Shown one piece after another: positions 9,118 to 51,445 of a DNA stretch of 64,000 nt. Under the pieces are notes generated by a model that was given only the letters and a program-made list of their open reading frames with translations, was not told the origin of the DNA and searched no databases. Both the position numbers and the translations under genes were made by a program. This DNA comes from Cordilura impudica (lineage: Eukaryota; Arthropoda; Insecta; Diptera; Scathophagidae). Within the stretch, counting starts at the first letter, position 1, and each line of letters opens with the position of its first letter. The stretch is taken from contig OY821518.1 in the NCBI GenBank assembly GCA_963682025.1, positions 221,326,868 through 221,390,867 of the forward strand. Reading direction: 5' to 3'.

Positions 9118-9400
9118 TTAAGAAAATGGGATTCTGGAAAGGCACTTTCCAAGGAAAATATACTTTTTTAAAAAAGGCGCTTCGTAAGAAAATGTATTTT
9201 TTAAGAAAATATACTATAAAAAACAAAATATTCATCTCTAACAACTGTACTTTTTTGAGAATATTAACTTTTTTAAGAAAATGAAAGAAATGTACTACTT
9301 TTAAAAATAATATATTTTTTTAACAAAAGGTGCTTTTTAAGAAAATGTACATTTTAAGAAAGGAGTCTATTTAAGAAGAGGAACTTTAGTAAATGATACT
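9118..9400 (+). repeat. Degenerate TTAAGAAAATGTACTTTTT array
   Basis: Roughly a dozen imperfect repeats of a 20-30 bp unit built from TTTTTTAAGAAAATGTACTT. Related arrays occur at 35430-35695 (opposite strand) and 42630-43040. Confidence 0.6.
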
Positions 9401-34113: not shown

Positions 34114-34620
34114 TAATTTTATTATTTTGTATAAAAATAAAAAATCTTATTTTCAATCTTTATAATTTTAATTATTGAGTTAGCACTTAATCAGGCTCAA
34201 GATTGAATGTTTTTATTTTAAATGGACCTGTCATTCAAAATATAGATCAATTCTTTTTAGACATATGTGGCAAATGGTTTTTGCTTTATTTAAAATAAAA
34301 ATATTTGATCTTGAGCCTTATTAAGTTCTAACTCATTCATTAAAATGATAAAGATCAAAAAAAGTTTTTTTTATTTTTATAGAAAATAAAACTTATTGTA
34401 TTAATTTTTAAATTTTCTAATTCAATAGCGAGCTTTAGGAGACATTCTAACACTTTTTTTATACTTAGGGTTTTCTAATTTTAATACCTAGTTACGTTCA
34501 ACATAAAATTATTACTCAATTGCATCGCATAATAAATATTTACATTTTCTTATAAAAGTAAATTTTCTTAAAACAAAATGCTTTTTCTTAAAAAGCTCAT
34601 CTTTTTAACAGTACCGTTTA
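34114..34620. other. AT-rich non-coding DNA
   Basis: No gene. Two inverted copies of ATTGAGTTAGCACTTAATCA-like sequence (34174-34200 and 34310-34340, reversed: TGAGCCTTATTAAGTTCTAACTC) form a possible ~165-bp foldback. Confidence 0.4.
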
Positions 34621-34646
34621 ATTAACAATTATCACAATGTTCATTA

Positions 34647-34687
34647 AATCGCTGATGAAGGCTGAAAAGCCAGAAACCGCTCCGATT
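34647..34687 (+). ncRNA. Hammerhead ribozyme core, copy 1 (degenerate)
   Basis: AATCG, CTGATGA, a short stem II (GGC...GCC), GAAAC, then CGATT pairing perfectly with AATCG as stem I. The cleavage triplet position reads CTC rather than GTC and the base pair closing stem II is A-A, so activity is doubtful. Confidence 0.65.
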
Positions 34688-35067
34688 AAGAATATGAATT
34701 TTTTAAATATATGCTTTCTTCTTCTTTACCACGCACCATATAAACAAAACTAAAATTTTCATATTAATTACAGTAGTAATTGCAATATGTCTGAAAAATG
34801 ACTATAAATCTAACAAATAAAAAATTTCTTCGCTTCAAAGCGTCATCTCAAATATATGTAAAGTGCATATGTAGGTATGTACAAAACCGTACATCACATA
34901 TGACAACTCTTACGAAAAACTGGGAATAGTGGAAATTAGAAGTATAAATGCAAAAAAATATTAAAAATTTAAAAATAGCGATTGTTTGTTTGACAGAGTT
35001 GTATCTTCTGCAATTAATACAAAGTAAAGCTGTATGGTACGAAAACTGACTCTAACCACACTGCTCG

Positions 35068-35152
35068 TAGGCCTGACTTTAGTTGCGTGTATTAAAGCGC
35101 TGACCAAAAAGTGAAAGTACGAGTGTATGTAAAGGTTCATGGTTCAAACTTC
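35068..35152 (+). promoter_or_regulatory. tRNA-like internal Pol III promoter (A and B boxes)
   Basis: TTAGTTGCGTGTATTAAAGC is A-box/D-arm-like and is followed about 60 bp later by GGTTCAAACTTC, a B box (consensus GGTTCRANNCC). The homologous copy at 38491-38563 fits better. It lies about 80 bp upstream of the hammerhead at 35233. Confidence 0.5.
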
Positions 35153-35232
35153 ACGGCCGCCCTAAGTTGAAAAATTTTCATATAGAAACAATCTATTCAA
35201 ATAAAACATAACAATTATGGCAATCTTCAATA

Positions 35233-35273
35233 AATCGCTGATGAAGGCTGAAATGCCTGAAACCTGTCCGATT
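35233..35273 (+). ncRNA. Hammerhead ribozyme, copy 2 (complete core)
   Basis: All type I hammerhead elements are present in order. Stem I 5' AATCG; CTGATGA (35238-35244); stem II AGGC-TGAAAT-GCCT, four pairs; GAAA (35259-35262); a minimal stem III (A-U and C-G around a 2-nt loop); cleavage triplet GTC ending at 35268; stem I 3' CGATT. The very short stem III is typical of Penelope-like and retrozyme hammerheads, which usually act as dimers. The closing pair of stem II is A-U where G-C is usual. Confidence 0.78.
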
Positions 35274-35429
35274 AAGAATACAGTGGTGCAGTTATGAATT
35301 TTTGAAATATATGCTTTCTTCTTCTTTACCACGCACCATTTAAACAAAATTAAAATTTGCATATTAATTACAGTAGTAATTGCAATATGTCTGAAAAATG
35401 ACTATAAATCTAACAAATTAAAAAAAATA

Positions 35430-35695
35430 ATTTTCTCTGAAAAAGTATATTTTCTTAAACAAGTGTCTTCAAAAAGTAATTTTTTCTACGAAAAGTAAAT
35501 TTTCTTAAAAAATTATCATTTCTGAAGATATTACCATTTGCTTATAAAAAACGTTTTCTTCGAAAAGTACTTTTTTTTACAAAAATTACCTATTTTCTTT
35601 AAAAGGTAAATTTCCTCAAAAAGTACCATATCTTAAAAAAGTAAATTTTCTCCAAGAAGTATATTACCTAAAATATTAAATTTTCATAATATCGT
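35430..35695 (-). repeat. Degenerate AAAAAGTAAATTTTCTTA array
   Basis: Units of 20-30 bp (AAAGTAAATTTTCTTAAAAA). It is the reverse-complement relative of the arrays at 9118 and 42630. Confidence 0.6.
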
Positions 35696-38183: not shown

Positions 38184-38605
38184 ACAAAGTTAAAATTTGC
38201 ATATTAATTACAGTATTAATTGTAATATGTCTGAAAAAGACTTCATATCTAACAAAAAACAAAAATTTTCGCTTCAAAGTATCATCCCAAATATACGTTA
38301 AAAGTACAATACGTAGTATGTACAAACCGTACATCACTTACCAAACTGAGAATAGTGGAAATTAGAAGTATAAATGCAAAAATATTAAAAATTGTTTGTT
38401 TGGACAGAGTTATATATTCTGAAATTAATACGAAGTAAAAGCTGTATGGTATGGAAACTGATTTTAGCCACACTTGTCGTAGGCCTGACTTTAGGTGAGT
38501 GTGTTAATGCGCTGACCAAAAAATGCAAGTACGAGTGCATGTGAAGGTTCAGGTTCAAACCTCACGGCCCACATTGGGTTGAAAAGGGTCAAAAGTGAGG
38601 ATTAA
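38184..38605 (+). mobile_element. Third copy of the hammerhead retroelement unit, without ribozyme
   Basis: It matches the 34.7-35.2 kb unit from CATATTAATTACAGTA through GTAGGCCTGACTTTAGGTGA and on past the B box to GGCCCACATTGGGTTGAAAA. The tRNA-like boxes are better here: TAGGTGAGTGTG (A box, 10 of 12 consensus positions) and GGTTCAAACCTC (38552-38563). The copy ends before the hammerhead position. Confidence 0.65.
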
Positions 38606-39409
38606 TTCAAAAATTGAAATGAGTATTTTGTAGTAAATTTTTATACCGGGTAACTGAGTATAAAATGTGTCATCACCAACTGTCAAAATTATTGTTCTAA
38701 GTTGTTTACTTTTCTTGCTATACTCTCTCAAAGTTCAACAATTTTTTTTAATTTTGCTCGAAGTGGTAAAAAGTGAAAAACGAGATATTTCAAGCTTAAT
38801 ATTGTCTCATTTTTTTTTTTTTAATTCTAACTTTTTTCAAATGGATGCATCAACTTCAGGTATTTGACTGTATTATTAAAAAATTTTAGATAAATGTTTT
38901 AGAAATATTTTTAATAATTTTTTGAAAATTGTCCTAAAAAGACGGTATTTTTAAAAAGAGATTGAGTTTCAACGTAATTCTAGATGAGATCGGGTAAAAT
39001 TATTTACATTGTAGTAAAATATGGGATTTCTACTTGTGTATTTCAAAAAAACATTTTGCCAACACTTGCCAACGAATGTAATATTCAAGTTTTTATTAAA
39101 AGTCCCCAGTATAAAATTAAAATAAAAATGCTTGAAAACACAACAGAAAAAATCTTTTTTTAGTTTTTGTTTTGTGTTTATTTTCGTAGCTGTGATTGTT
39201 ATTGTTGCTGTTGTAAATGTGTAACCTAGTGTTACAATAAATAATTTTAATGATCATGGGCATTATAGTGGAGCGAAAAATCGAAGCTCTGAAATTACAA
39301 AACGTTCTCGGGTAAAAAGTTTTAGAACAATATAAAAAAATGATGATAATTATGAAGATGCTGATTATATTTCTAAAGGTGATAATAATAAGGAGGATCC
39401 TTGATTTTA

Positions 39410-39413
<4 letters not shown>
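38606..39413. other. AT-rich non-coding DNA
   Basis: No gene recognised; a (TA)n run begins at 39414. Confidence 0.5.

Positions 39414-39456
<43 letters not shown>
39414..39456. repeat. (TA)n microsatellite, left of Helitron
   Basis: Uninterrupted TA run directly before the TC start; a matching run follows the element at 41233-41281. Confidence 0.95.
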
Positions 39457-39458
<2 letters not shown>

Positions 39459-41231
39459 TAATATATATAAAAATGAGTTGGCGTGTGTTTGTGACAGCAT
39501 AACTAAAGAACGGAGAGACGGATTTGGCTGATTCGTTTTCAATTTTGTTCAGTGTTGTCCCCGAATGGTTTGTAGACAAAAAAATTTCCATAATTTTACA
39601 TATATTTTTGCAAACAAAATCGCAATATTGATTACCTGCTCATACTACACGAGGTTATGATACGTTTTGTGGAAAAAAAACATATTTTGCTAAGAATTTT
39701 TAAAATTCTCATTTTTAAAAAAAGATTTTTTAACATCAACTCTTATCTGAATATGAGTTGTTATTAGCAACTATAAGATCGCAAAATCACATTGCACTTG
39801 CCCTCGCATCCTTAGGTATTGCTGCAACTTTATTGGATGGCGGTAGAACTGCGCATTCGGCACTTAAACTGCCATTGAAGATGCAGATTAACGACCAACC
39901 AACATGCAACATATCGAAGACATCCGGAATGACAAAAGTCTTGCAACAATGCAAACTGATTGTGTGGGACGAGTGTACAATGGCACACAAAAAATCATTG
40001 CAAACTTTGCAAATAACACTACAAGATCTGCGAGATAATGGAAATCTTTGTGGTGGTGCCCTGATACTGTTGGCAGGCGATTTTCGCCAAACATTACCGG
40101 TAATTCCACGGTCAACTGCAGCTGATCAAATAAATGCATGTCTAAAATCTTCCAATTTGTGGAGACATGTTACAACGCTGAAACTCACAACAAATATGCG
40201 AATCCAACTGCAAAACGATCCCTCAGCAGATGTTTTTTCGGTGCAATTATTGGATATTGGAAATGGAAAAATTCCCATCAACGTTACGACTGTTTTAATA
40301 AAGTTACCTAATGAGTTCTGCCATTTCACTAAATCAAAAGAAGAGCTAATTCATTGTGTGTTCCCCAACATTGCGCAGCATTACAGGAATCACGATTGGC
40401 TAGGAGAACGAGCAATATTAGCCGCTAAAAATAAAGACGTCGATGAGATAAATGCAACGATTCAAATGGCCATTGAAGGACTAATAGTGTCTTACAAATC
40501 AATTGACACTATCATGAATCAGGAGGATGTTGTGAATTATCCAACAGAATTTTTAAATTCAATCGAGTTGTCAGGTTTGCCGCTACATGATCTACAGTTG
40601 AAGGTTGGATCCGTAGTTATAATGATGCGTAATATCAATCAGCTTCGACTTTGCAATGGCACAAGACTTATTGTCAAAAAACTTATGACACCCGTCATTG
40701 AAGGAACAATTCTGAAGGGAAAGTACAAGGGGGAAGACGTACTGATCCCACGAATACCAATAATTCCGAATGATTTGCCATTCGAATTCAAACGCCTTCA
40801 ATTTCCAGTTAGACTTGCATTTGCAATGACCATTAATAAGGCGCAGGGACAGTCTTTAAAAATTTGTGGCATCAATTTGGAGTATCCATGCTTTTCTCAT
40901 GGCCAGCTCTATGTGGCATGTTCTCGAGTAGGCAAACCATCGGCGTTATTTGTTTACGCTCCCAGTAATTTAAAATCTCAATTAAATTGACTTTATTAAA
41001 ATAATCATTAAAAACTTAACAAAAATAATATTTAAAGCATTCTTTTAAATAAACATACTTTTGTAACACAATTATTTTCTCAATTTAAATATTTAAATAC
41101 GGAACCATCTATCAGGACGAAATTTGCCGGTCAGCTATTGTATATATTGCAGCACTTGAATAAAATGAAAAAAAAAATTCTGTCTCATTACAACTACAAT
41201 TCAGGGGTAGCGAAGCGCACCGGGTCAACTA

Positions 41232-41232
<1 letters not shown>
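39457..41232 (+). mobile_element. Internally deleted autonomous-type Helitron (H4)
   Basis: It starts TCTAATATATATAAAAATGA and ends GGTAGCGAAGCGCACCGGGT then CAACTAG before a T, with a GCG/CGC stem upstream of CTAG. Both flanks are (TA)n, consistent with insertion between A and T in one TA run. At 1776 bp it keeps only the 3' part of the RepHel gene; Rep endonuclease motifs are absent. Confidence 0.87.
39734..40990 (+). pseudogene. Helitron RepHel, C-terminal PIF1-type helicase domain
   Basis: The frame is open from 39734 to TGA at 40990; counting from 39758 it has 410 codons. Helicase motifs in order are GGRTAHS (about 28-34), WDECTMAHK (70-78, Walker B), GDFRQTLPVI (107-116), TTNMR (144-148), TINKAQGQS (358-366) and GQLYVACSRV (382-391). 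In Helitrons this domain unwinds DNA during rolling-circle transposition. The Walker A loop (GxGGTGKT) should lie just upstream of LLLATIRSQ but is missing, and the Rep HUH nuclease and an initiating ATG are also gone. The open frame over 1.2 kb implies recent loss. It may be expressed only if fused to an upstream exon. Confidence 0.9.

Positions 41233-41281
<49 letters not shown>
41233..41281. repeat. (TA)n microsatellite, right of Helitron
   Basis: Uninterrupted TA run following CTAG. Confidence 0.95.
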
Positions 41282-41284
<3 letters not shown>

Positions 41285-41838
41285 AGTTTCTCTTAAATAA
41301 GAACAATATAAAATAAAAAATACACAATAACAATAAATGCATACAAAATTTTCAATTATAAATGTAGCAATATATTCAATATTAATTGAATTAATTTTTT
41401 TTAAATTTTTTTTTAATTTTTCTGAAATGGTTGTTTGTTTTGTGCTTATAATTATTCATCAATAAAAACATAATATTATTTTATAATGTGAATTTTTTTA
41501 GTTAAGTTTATGGAATTATGGAATTTGGAAAATAAAATCGGATTTTGAAATTCAATTTTTATAATATAAATACATATTAAATATTTATTCCTTTTTTATT
41601 TTTAGAAAAAATTTTATTTTTTCTAAAAGCACATTAACTAAGTTCTAACTTGCAATTTCATTTACTAACTTATCGCTTTTTATTCCAAAGTTACAACGCA
41701 AATTTTTTCTAAAACACAAAAAAGCTCCTAACGGGTTAAAACAAATTTTTTTCCCACTTTTTTTTTTAAATGGTGGTTTTTTATGCATTAAGGAATATCC
41801 ATTAAAAAAAATTAACAATATTTTGAAATTACGTCTTC
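41282..41838. other. AT-rich non-coding DNA
   Basis: No gene or repeat recognised. Confidence 0.5.
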
Positions 41839-42040
41839 CCTGAATTAATCCTCACTTTTCATGCTTTTCAACCCACTGTGCGGCCGCCCTAGAAACAATC
41901 TATTCAATTATAACGTTACAATTAGCACAATGTTCAATAAATCGCTGATGAAAGCTGAAATGCCAGAAACCGGTCCGCTTAAGAATACTCGCTTAAGAAT
42001 ACCAAGTGTACTCGTAGTTATGAATTTTTGGAAAAAAAAT
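41839..42040 (+). mobile_element. Fragment of the hammerhead retroelement, rearranged
   Basis: 41839-41880 is the inverted form of the 38575-38603 segment (GTGAGGATTAATTC, GGGTTGAAAAG). It is followed in plus orientation by CGGCCGCCCTAGAAACAATC (as at 35154-35190, with an internal gap) and the hammerhead at 41940. Confidence 0.6.
41940..41980 (+). ncRNA. Hammerhead ribozyme core, copy 3
   Basis: AATCG, CTGATGA (41945-41951), weakened stem II (AAGC-TGAAAT-GCCA), GAAACCGGTC with a GTC triplet, then CGCTT, which pairs with AATCG except at one position. GAAACCGGTC is the form common in Penelope-type hammerheads. Confidence 0.65.
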
Positions 42041-42629
42041 TATTTTTAATTGAGAATTTGAGAAGTCAAGTAATTTTGTTTTTAATGCAAGAAATTTCTT
42101 CAAAAAACTCCACAGGATATTGACTGTAGCTTAAAACTAAATTGAACTTGCTTGATGGTCAAAGGTTGAGTTTTAGACTTAAACGATTAATATCGTTCAT
42201 AATAGGAAACTAGGCCTCAGGAATTCGCATCAAAATAAATAAAAATCAAATATATTCCCTTAAGTCAAGACTTCTTTTTGTTTGGATTTTGACTGTTTGA
42301 CTTGACACGATTTATACAATTTTTTTTAACTATACTTCTCACGCGAAAAATAAGGTGTAAGTTTTTTTGGTTTTTGTCGTATTGTATTTATGAATTGTTT
42401 TGAAATACAAATTTTTTTGTGATTTTAGTAACTTTTTCGCTATCGAAAAGCTTTCAGTGTGCGGTATTATCAATTTTTGTTAGTAAACACATATGCGGTT
42501 TTTGCCAGTAACATGTAAAAGTAAGGCAGTTTAAAGAATCGAATGTTTAAAATTTTAGTTACAAGCTAAGAGTGCAAGTAAAACTTCTAGTAACGATTTT
42601 TTAAATCGAAATCATTTGGTTTGATATTT

Positions 42630-43040
42630 GTACTTTTTAAGAAAAAATAATTATAAAAGTACTTTTTTTTATTTACACTTTTAAAGAAAATATACTTTTT
42701 TAGAACACATTCTTTTCTAATAAAATTTTCTTTCTAAGAAAAAAAAAAAAACTCTAAGATGTAGGTACGTTTCTAAGAAAAGTACTTTTTTAAAAAATGG
42801 CGATGTTTTCAAAAAAAAGTTATTGTTTCAAGGACATATACTTTTCTAAGTAAAGGTACTGTATCAATAAAAGTTTTGTTTCTAATAAAAAGTGTTTTTC
42901 AAGAAAACATATTTTCTTAATCAAATCGAAATCAAGAAAATTTACTTTTTCAAGAAAGGTTACTTGTAACAGAGTTGGTTTTTTCAGAGAAGGTACTTTT
43001 TTAAGAAAGGGCATTTTTTGAAAAAGAAACTTTTGAAAAC
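42630..43040 (+). repeat. Degenerate ACTTTTTTAAGAAAA array
   Basis: About 15 imperfect units such as GGTACTTTTTTAAGAAAGGG and AAGTACTTTTTTAAAAAATG. Confidence 0.6.
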
Positions 43041-46779: not shown

Positions 46780-46970
46780 ATATGTATACAGCAATTCAGT
46801 AAAGATTTCTATTTTTATAAACAAATAAATACTTTTACAAAATATTAAAAAAAATTTCGGATTTGTAAATTCTTCCATGCACTACAAAAGAAAGTTTTAA
46901 AATATTTGAGATATTAAATTTATAATTTCTTCTTAAATTAAGGGAACTTTTGTATTCCATTCACGTAATA

Positions 46971-47953
46971 AATGAAATGAAATGAAATGAAATGAAATGA
47001 AATGAAATGAAATGAAATGAAATGAAATGAAATGAAATGAAATGAAATGAAATGAAATGAAATGAAATGAAATGAAATGAAATGAAATGAAATGAAATGA
47101 AATGAAATGAAATGAAATGAAATGAAATGAAATGAAATGAAATGAAATGAAATGAAATGAAATGAAATGAAATGAAATGAAATGAAATGAAATGAAATGA
47201 AATGAAATGAGATGATATGAAATGAAATGAAATGAAATGAAATGAAATGAAATGAAATGAAATGAAATGAAATGAAATGAAATGAAATGAAATCTAATGA
47301 AATCTAATGAAATGAAATGATATTAAATGAAATTAAATGAAATAAAATGAAATGAAATGAAATGAAATAAAATGAAATGAAATGAAATGAAATGAAATGA
47401 AATGAAATGAAATGAAATGAAATGAAATGAAATGAAATGAAATGAAATGAAATAAAATGAAATGAAATGAAATGAAATGAAATGAAATGAAATGAAAAGA
47501 AATGTAATAAAATGAAATGAAATGTAATAAAATGAAATGAAATGAAATGAAATGAAATGAAATGAAATGAAATGAAATGAAATGAAATGAAATGAAATGA
47601 AATGAAATGAAATGAAATGAAATGAAATGAAATGAAATGAAATGAAATGAAATGAAATGAAATGAAATGAAACGAAATGAAATGAAATGAAATGAAACGA
47701 AATGAAATTAAATGAAATGAAATTAAATGAAATGAAATGAAATGAAATGAAATGAAATGAAATGAAATGAAATGAAATGAAATGAAATGAAATGAAATGA
47801 AATGAAATGAAATGAAATGAATTGAAATGAAATGAAATGAAATGAAATGAAATGAAATGAAATGAAATGAAATGAAATAAAATGAAATGAAATGAAATAA
47901 AATGAATTAAATGAAATGAAGTGAAATGAAATGAAATGAAATGTAATGAAATG
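46971..47953. repeat. (AATGA)n pentanucleotide microsatellite, ~980 bp
   Basis: Nearly perfect AATGA repeats, about 195 units, with variants (AATAA, AATTA, AACGA, AATGT) mainly at 47200-47340, 47500-47530 and 47690-47740. The minus strand is open as Ser-Phe-His-Phe-Ile repeats, which is not a gene. Confidence 0.97.
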
Positions 47954-50616: not shown

Positions 50617-51445
50617 AACAAGTAAGAAAATTATAGTCGGTCTAGACCGACTATACGATACCCTATACCATGTGTTTAGAGACCCTATCTCTCAGGCCCA
50701 ACTAACTGGATATAGAAAATAAGCATAAACAAATTTGAGTGGGATTTTTATTAATATTTTCGGCTGCAGATATGAAAAAGTTCATATCGGATGCTATATC
50801 TATATGGGAACTAGGCCCAAAAATGGACCGATCCTGACCGTGTTTGGTAAAGTCTCCTGTATTTTGCAAAAATATATACAAACAAAATTTGAGAAGAATC
50901 AGTGCAATATTTTTGTTTTTTGATAGATTTAAGTGAAGATCGGGAAGCAGCTCTATATGGGGCCTATGACTAAGAGTTGTCCAATAGGAATCATTTTTGG
51001 ACTACTGATTAATGGATGTAATATATATATACAAACCCAATTTGACTAAGATTTGTATGATAATTTGGATCTTATGGCAATGTATGTTGATTTCATAGGG
51101 GTCGTTTGTATGGGGGCTAGGTCTGAACATGGACCGATTCTCACCAATTTCAATAGCTTTCATCCCATGGCCGATTGAAGATTAAATACCAAATTTCATT
51201 AAAATATATTCATATTTGCGATCTGCAGTTTGATTGCAAACTTTACATGGGCACACAGACGGACGGACGGACGGACGGACATCGTTAAATCGAATCAGAT
51301 AGTGATTCTGATTCTTTAATTATACCGATCGAATCAGATAGTGATTCTGATTCGATCGGTATAATTAAAGATGGGTGTAGGTCAAATTACAAACAGCAGC
51401 ACAAAGTCATTATACCCAAACCACATAGTGGTATAGGGTATAAAA
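50617..51445 (-). repeat. DINE-1-like repeat, full length
   Basis: From AACAAGTAAGAAAATTATAG with a perfect 24-bp palindrome at 50632-50655, through GACGGACGGACGGACGGAC at 51259-51279, to GGTATAGGGTATAAAA. An extra inverted duplication forms a perfect 24-bp stem at 51314-51370. It lies tail to tail with the copy at 49682-50459. Confidence 0.88.

Follow-up and report, generated by a model that had tools for sequence, protein, structure and literature searches.

The window, that is, the whole 64-kb stretch of DNA that was analysed, contains two copies of a non-coding repeated element that carries hammerhead ribozyme motifs (Table 1). Both motifs of copy 1 are present where the original prediction placed them, and the spacing of 586 bp between them is confirmed. 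The predicted tandem repeat is real but longer than was claimed, as 72 bp round the motif (89% identical) and a further 132 bp downstream of it (96% identical) are duplicated, and the region from about 34623 to 35425 is therefore treated as one element. The spacing of 586 bp is likewise correct for the window copy, but the family unit is about 605 bp. The downstream motif, which was described as having every core element of a hammerhead, does contain these elements, but in a form atypical of the family, with T at position 11.1 and a CCTG tetraloop. In the upstream motif (34647-34687), stem II has A.A at its base and the tetraloop is CCGC, and both window tetraloops are broken forms of the family palindrome CCGG. 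Among the fetched loci, the full unit closest to the full-length part of copy 1 differs from it by 4.7%, compared with about 0.7-1.3% for many other units and their nearest neighbours; judged by its sequence, copy 1 is an old, mutated, and degenerate member of the family. No ORF of at least 150 aa is present in the element, nor is the ORF with reverse transcriptase and GIY-YIG domains that marks an autonomous Penelope-like element. The sole direct repeat detected in the element is the portion of the unit that is covered twice, and a reading of this repeat as terminal repeats or LTRs was rejected for that reason.

Table 1. Features of the retrozyme copies in the 64-kb window (positions are those of the window).
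Feature	Position	Strand	Description
Retrozyme copy 1	34623..35425	+	1.33 units; 5' end at unit position 546, 3' end near unit position 154 (locus L001)
Upstream hammerhead motif	34647..34687	+	Stem I AATCG/CGATT; CTGATGA 34652-34658; GAAA; predicted cut 34682/34683
Predicted unit-length RNA	34683..35268	+	586 nt here, 605 in L005; putative cleavage
A-box-like stretch, weak	35080..35091	+	TAGTTGCGTGTA in window copy, TAGGTGAGTGTG in L005; our own reading
B-box-like stretch	35141..35151	+	GGTTCAAACTT in window copy; GGTTCAAAACC in L005, 9/9 consensus positions
T4 run 3' of B box	35175..35178	+	Possible Pol III stop
Downstream hammerhead motif	35233..35273	+	CTGATGA 35238-35244; stem II AGGC/GCCT; tetraloop CCTG; predicted cut 35268/35269
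T5 run about 30 nt past downstream predicted cut	35299..35303	+	Possible Pol III stop
A-rich site, family end class A	35340..35355	+	Unit position about 68-84; putative reverse transcription start
A-rich site, family end class B	35410..35425	+	Unit position about 140-165; 3' end of window copy 1
Retrozyme copy 2, 5' part	38188..38569	+	5' truncated; start approximate
Retrozyme copy 2, 3' part	41881..42032	+	Beyond nested insertion; end approximate, truncated near unit position 35
Third hammerhead motif, decayed	41940..41980	+	Stem II AAGC/GCCA; CCGG tetraloop; one stem I mismatch

Copy 1 is flanked by an 18-bp minisatellite (unit like AAGTAAATTTTCTTAAAA) at 34534-34584 and 35421-35689. The minisatellite was considered as a part of the element and rejected, since the flanks of the 43 copies that were printed, the window's own excepted, are unlike it, and it is therefore taken as the insertion site of copy 1. 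Stretches similar to the minisatellite occur on the opposite strand near 9140-9390 and 42620-43040. Just upstream of copy 1, at 34122-34389, lies an inverted repeat with 102-nt arms that are 85% complementary and a 64-nt loop. A search of the 64-kb window identified copy 2, which is split by a 3.3-kb insertion (38570-41880) with the inverted ends CACAtTGGGTTGAAAAG / CACAgTGGGTTGAAAAG and a 5-bp duplication, CGGCC, at 38565-38569 and 41881-41885. The insertion contains a PIF1-helicase ORF (39758-40990), followed by a stretch near 41206-41231 that we take to resemble a Helitron 3' end, and possibly consists of three nested elements. The view that copy 2 is itself part of a helicase-bearing element was rejected, because that element interrupts copy 2 instead. 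The window also contains an AAATG pentanucleotide array of about 197 copies (46970-47953) and a near-perfect 25-bp hairpin (51314-51370) with weak matches to several unrelated Rfam families.

The expectation that further copies would be found in the genome is borne out by thousands of dispersed motifs and by tandem units elsewhere. In the genome searched (1.49 Gb, 855 contigs), the core pattern CTGATGAN{8,24}GAAACNNGTC has 6307 matches, compared with 12 for the reversed control pattern. An 851-bp query returned 46 listed matches, with the best 40 of 3120 candidates scored, and these are located on six large contigs. Measured from cut to cut, the family unit is 605 bp in locus L005 and has a GC content of 32.4%, which lies below the 45% that characterizes metazoan non-LTR retrozymes. 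The fetched loci contain anything from part of a unit to over three units; among 67 measured stretches, six are longer than two units and 61 are shorter, while 21 of the 28 stretches in motif-sampled loci do not exceed one unit. Within arrays, identical gap-free units are present in L047 (604/604, in both its arrays) and L026 (564/564 compared), the units of L004 have zero substitutions and 14 gap positions, and both full units of L029 have an unusual length of 585 bp. Units of L005, L006, L014, and L029 differ from each other by 0.3-1.6% substitutions. The divergence within the array is 1.17% in L005 and 0.84% in L014, as against 1.01% and 0.84%, respectively, to the nearest other locus; the array units of L029 are closest to each other (1.2% vs. 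1.9-2.1% to other fetched full units), and L006 is mixed. In 727 pairs of full units from different loci, the median divergence is 2.7% substitutions and the lowest 0.68%. When all segments are compared, the median is 1.2% within arrays (69 pairs) and 4.0% between loci (4554 pairs), with within-array values that reach 13%, in part owing to short or A-rich end pieces.

The ends of the copies were analyzed in 65 stretches, namely the 67 measured stretches minus two in duplicated loci. The 3' ends fall at unit positions 68-84 in 20 stretches, at 140-165 in 30, and elsewhere in 15, so that two A-rich windows, set after viewing the data, hold 50 of the 65 ends yet span 7% of the unit. For these 50 stretches, the distribution of 5' ends is consistent with uniformity (KS p=0.61, or p=0.88 when the 21 stretches from motif-sampled loci are taken by themselves), and the predicted cut junction lies inside 48 of them. 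Several older copies (L033, L044, and L031/L032) have a common 5' end near unit position 230-236, unlike the scattered 5' ends otherwise found; L031/L032 and two L033 copies resemble products of segmental duplication. Nine same-strand neighbours spaced at 600-610 bp occur among the first 100 motifs listed. In the same set, five pairs of neighbours less than 3 kb apart are head-to-head and none is tail-to-tail, and one of the five resembles an inverted duplication of older date, its flanks being identical. Seventeen of 42 elements have flank repeats of 7 bp or longer, a number that includes two L033 copies with identical flanks and some pure A runs, compared with 11% of mismatched pairs in a position-constrained test; a looser earlier test for target site duplications (TSDs) gave a weaker result, with 5 of 43 at 8 bp or more vs. 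3.2%. TSDs longer than 4 bp, a property of metazoan non-LTR retrozymes, are thus found in the family. The head-to-head array of L047 lies between two copies of the 15-bp AT-rich sequence ATCATGAATATATAT, and the whole array is therefore considered to be one insertion.

These footprints bear on the view that the family is an ordinary satellite repeat that spread by unequal exchange and in which the ribozyme is no more than a remnant. The family does include tandem units of about 605 bp, and the identical units within arrays also fit recent local duplication. However, copies lie on all six large scaffolds, 61 of the 67 measured stretches are shorter than two units, 3' ends cluster while 5' ends scatter, and the flanks are often duplicated, all of which makes a satellite origin highly improbable.

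The form of the ribozyme was analyzed in 85 motifs (28 distinct) of the fetched loci, with two duplicate loci removed and at most four mismatches allowed to a two-form template. The type I hammerhead core and three helices are present in these motifs. The first pair of stem I is G-C in 76, A-T in eight, and A-C in one, and the third pair of stem III is C-G in 74, T-A in eight, and unpaired in three. Genome-wide, the inner pair of stem I is A..T in 244 motifs, A..C in 73, and G..T in 80, and the stem III tetraloop is CTAG in 164 motifs, CTGG in 133, and CCAG in 75. Had the two sides changed independently, roughly one A..T and roughly two CTAG motifs would be expected among about 6000. Covariation in stems I and II had been named as a test; it is observed in stem I, and also in stem III, but stem II is without compensatory change. 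The A-T motifs occur with both CCGG and CTAG, which suggests separate steps, though few of them. Both double changes are found mostly in one older subfamily and therefore count as few events.

The usual hammerhead form at positions 10.1/11.1, at the base of stem II, is a G-C pair. In the present family these positions are A.A in 84 of the 85 motifs, and A-T is found only in the downstream motif of the window. At position 11.1, 96 of the first 100 motifs listed have A and four have G, and a few further copies with T are present in the lists of tetraloop-variant motifs. The ribozyme stretch is the least variable part of the unit, with 8 of 1795 sites off the majority vs. 391 of 22648 elsewhere, and one of 559 sliding windows is as low. 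The set for this comparison consists of 25 loci from L002-L030, picked by similarity to the window, with overlaps merged and L018, a duplicate of L019, dropped; the low variability serves as supporting evidence only, because the sliding windows overlap and the copies share ancestry. Cofolding of two L005-type motifs yields a double-hammerhead pairing in which stem I gains five pairs past an internal loop, and a pair of CTAG-form motifs cofolds only partly in this manner. The energy of the dimer is no better than chance and was rejected as evidence, since 78 of 200 letter shuffles fold as stably. Rfam scans reported no hammerhead at the window motifs and no relevant match in the family sequence scanned. 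A genome-wide search with Hammerhead_1 alone found none, and as control genomes are equally silent, this result says little.

The original prediction further held that the element is a SINE/retrozyme hybrid in which tRNA-like A and B boxes drive Pol III transcription of the unit-length RNA. When scored against A- and B-box consensuses, the B box of L005 matches at 9 of 9 positions, and the joint A+B score is reached by two of 400 shuffles, chiefly through the B box. The schistosome SMalpha element, which is SINE-like, has a Pol III promoter. In favour of such a hybrid, schistosomes have a hammerhead-bearing SINE-like family (PMC8490949). In the window copy, however, the boxes are weak, and the A box of L005 is at best 6/8; the scoring script favoured a different 6/8 stretch that is closer to the B box than the one in Table 1. 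The A and B boxes each have a variability of 1.55% compared with 1.74% for the rest of the unit and are hardly more conserved, and no tRNA was reported by ARAGORN or Rfam scans. The unit also has two runs of T4-5, one about 25-30 nt past the B box and so between the boxes and the ribozyme, and one about 28-31 nt past the ribozyme cut, and such a run is located within 60 nt downstream of the B-box block in 47 of the 47 occurrences counted. If active here, Pol III would therefore be expected to stop long before 605 nt. The T4-5 runs, the poor A box, and the lack of a tRNA match speak against production of the full 586-nt RNA by Pol III, and transcription of the whole unit by this polymerase is unlikely. 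We consider the hybrid as a whole improbable, though less so than a satellite.

The genome also contains Penelope-like elements, which are candidates for the source of a mobilizing enzyme. At least 46 GIY-YIG matches were found, with the best 150 of 379 candidates scored. The two places that were opened, L061 and L062, are Penelope-like elements that are 98.8% alike over 2 kb. L061 has 284-bp pseudo-LTRs round an ORF with reverse transcriptase and GIY-YIG domains, together with a hammerhead-like stretch without the canonical CUGANGA and with predicted cuts at 1003 and 3908. Its own 3' end lies 76 nt past the predicted hammerhead-like cut; in the L061-type family, 30 of 45 listed matches end 104-116 nt past the cut and three at 67-87 nt, with the best 40 of 472 candidates scored. 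The sequence of the L061-type end site, TCAAAAAATTCT, resembles that of the second end site of the retrozyme, ACAAAAAATTTCT. L062 carries an inverted 5' piece. A partial second Penelope-like frame is present in the flank of L004, where the reverse transcriptase match is just below the curated cut-off. This partial copy has its own hammerhead-like motif, CTGATGAGGACACCAACCATAGTGTCGAAACGTCGC, at L004:1334-1375, tail-to-tail beside the retrozyme array.

A Penelope-like element of the lizard Anolis has been characterized biochemically (PMC11167929). Its reverse transcription begins internally, at two neighbouring sites, of which the major one lies 111-118 nt into the ORF; with the ribozyme cut at 26, subtraction places this start about 85-92 nt beyond the cut. 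The enzyme favours AT-rich DNA, and both strands are cut and extended (PMC11167929). Clustered ends past the hammerhead, AT-rich insertion sites, and head-to-head fusions are footprints that would be expected of a Penelope-type enzyme, and the present family has clustered internal 3' ends past its hammerhead, 5' truncation, and inverted 5' fusions. The retrozyme or Penelope-like arrangement that was originally proposed is upheld, with tandem hammerheads and a tiny stem III in the window, tandem units elsewhere, and covariation in stem I. The most probable explanation is that the element is a non-coding retrozyme of about 605 bp, present in thousands of copies, the RNA of which is likely cut by its hammerheads, circularised, and reverse-transcribed by Penelope-type enzymes.

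In the mechanism that we propose, a transcript spanning at least two ribozymes would be cut at GUC/C. Stem III consists of one A-U pair closed by the palindromic tetraloop CCGG, so that two ribozymes would probably act as a dimer. The cut unit would be closed into a circle by a host ligase, and a Penelope-like protein would open AT-rich DNA and begin copying at the A-rich site 68-84 or 140-165 nt past the cut. The enzyme would travel round the circle over a variable distance, which would result in 5' truncation as well as in tandem units, and copying would at times proceed from both sides of the break, which would result in head-to-head pairs. A stricter form of this model, to which we give an even chance, is that the 605-nt retrozyme parasitises Penelope elements through look-alikes of both internal start sites downstream of a dimeric hammerhead, with repeated rounds of copying of the circle into AT-rich DNA that start on one side of the break or on both. 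If true, this would identify the enzyme that mobilizes animal retrozymes and establish that its template is a circle.

Alternatively, the template may be an uncut linear tandem transcript, on which a Penelope-like enzyme starts at the internal A-rich site with a dispensable ribozyme and no circle. Such multimers would also yield clustered 3' ends and variable 5' ends. The lizard Penelope enzyme not only starts internally but also uses uncut RNA in vitro, where ribozyme mutants insert normally (PMC11167929); as insertion in this system needs no ribozyme cutting, the circles are a putative intermediate. However, most motif-sampled loci cannot yield multi-unit transcripts, as 21 of the 28 stretches are no longer than one unit, and linear multimers would tend to shrink in every round. 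The low variability of the ribozyme stretch and the pairing kept in stems I and III also argue against a dispensable ribozyme. We therefore regard linear templates as doubtful, though they are the most serious alternative to hammerhead-cut, circularised RNA.

Among known systems, the family is closest to the metazoan non-LTR retrozymes, for which insects are named among the hosts and Penelope elements are called 'a strong candidate' as the mobilizing machinery (Cervera and de la Pena 2020, PMC7229834). Like the present family, these retrozymes have a type I hammerhead and occur in thousands of copies as low-GC tandem repeats from dimers up, and they co-exist with Penelope-like elements, as is the case in this genome (PMC7229834). 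The unit of 605 bp is larger than the range of about 170-400 nt given for metazoan retrozymes, a range that we take as non-defining (PMC7229834). Compared with the metazoan retrozymes described in PMC7229834, the B-box-like stretch, the 3'-end footprints, and the head-to-head footprints are additional features of the present family at the level of DNA. The axolotl HHR_Amex1 shares with the present motif a one-pair stem III and a palindromic tetraloop and works as a dimer, while HHR_Amex2 has a mismatch at the base of stem II (U.U there, A.A here) and still cuts (PMC7229834). At the level of sequence, the present motif unites the traits of both axolotl ribozymes (PMC7229834).

The Anolis Poseidon element PAc resembles the family in its two internal reverse transcription starts tens of nucleotides past the hammerhead cut, its AC-rich start, its AT-rich targets, and the cutting and extension of both DNA strands (PMC11167929). 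Unlike PAc, the present element is non-coding and must borrow its enzyme, and its two sites are farther apart (PMC11167929). The schistosome SMalpha SINE-like element is also a non-coding repeat with a type I hammerhead, a likeness drawn from its description only, and its unit is shorter (335 bp for the member W36.2) (PMC8490949). Plant LTR retrozymes are non-autonomous and ribozyme-bounded, as is proposed for the present element, and their circular RNA is 600-800 nt, but they have a type III hammerhead, true LTRs with PBS/PPT, 4-bp TSDs, and Gypsy machinery (PMC7229834). Dipteran hammerheads related to HDV-like agents are also located in fly genomes, but these are of type III with long helices I and II, in contrast to type I here (PMC7936874).

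No published description of the present family was found among the titles and abstract openings listed from a literature collection with few subscription journals. We regard it as a new family of a known kind, the metazoan non-LTR retrozymes, that is unusual for its size and for how clear its insertion footprints are. The account in PMC7229834 left the moving enzyme and the circular template as a proposal. Both are now directly testable, since the family is large, some copies are less than 1% apart, and its footprints resemble both those of the Penelope enzyme characterized biochemically and those of a Penelope-like family that this genome contains. The family also provides a natural hammerhead, with A.A as the basal pair of stem II and with a palindromic stem III, in which dimer action can be tested.

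Related motifs were also searched for elsewhere. Two patterns gave zero matches in a viral collection. The exact family core CTGATGAAGGCTGAAATGCCAGAAAC, A.A included, is present at L070:3768-3793 (-) and L071:6790-6815 (+), which are bacterial records (Cysteiniphilum litorale and a Caedibacter MAG) with mutually similar flanks. There, GTAAAA would pair with TTTTAC as stem I of a type I hammerhead; these stretches have no Rfam match, and their fold is no stabler than that of shuffles. In the genome that holds the window, L035 (C1:1162934-1162963) contains the core pattern, with a different stem II (AGTC/GTCG) and the tetraloop CTAG; it has no BLAST match to the 605-bp unit and may be either a relic or a second hammerhead family.
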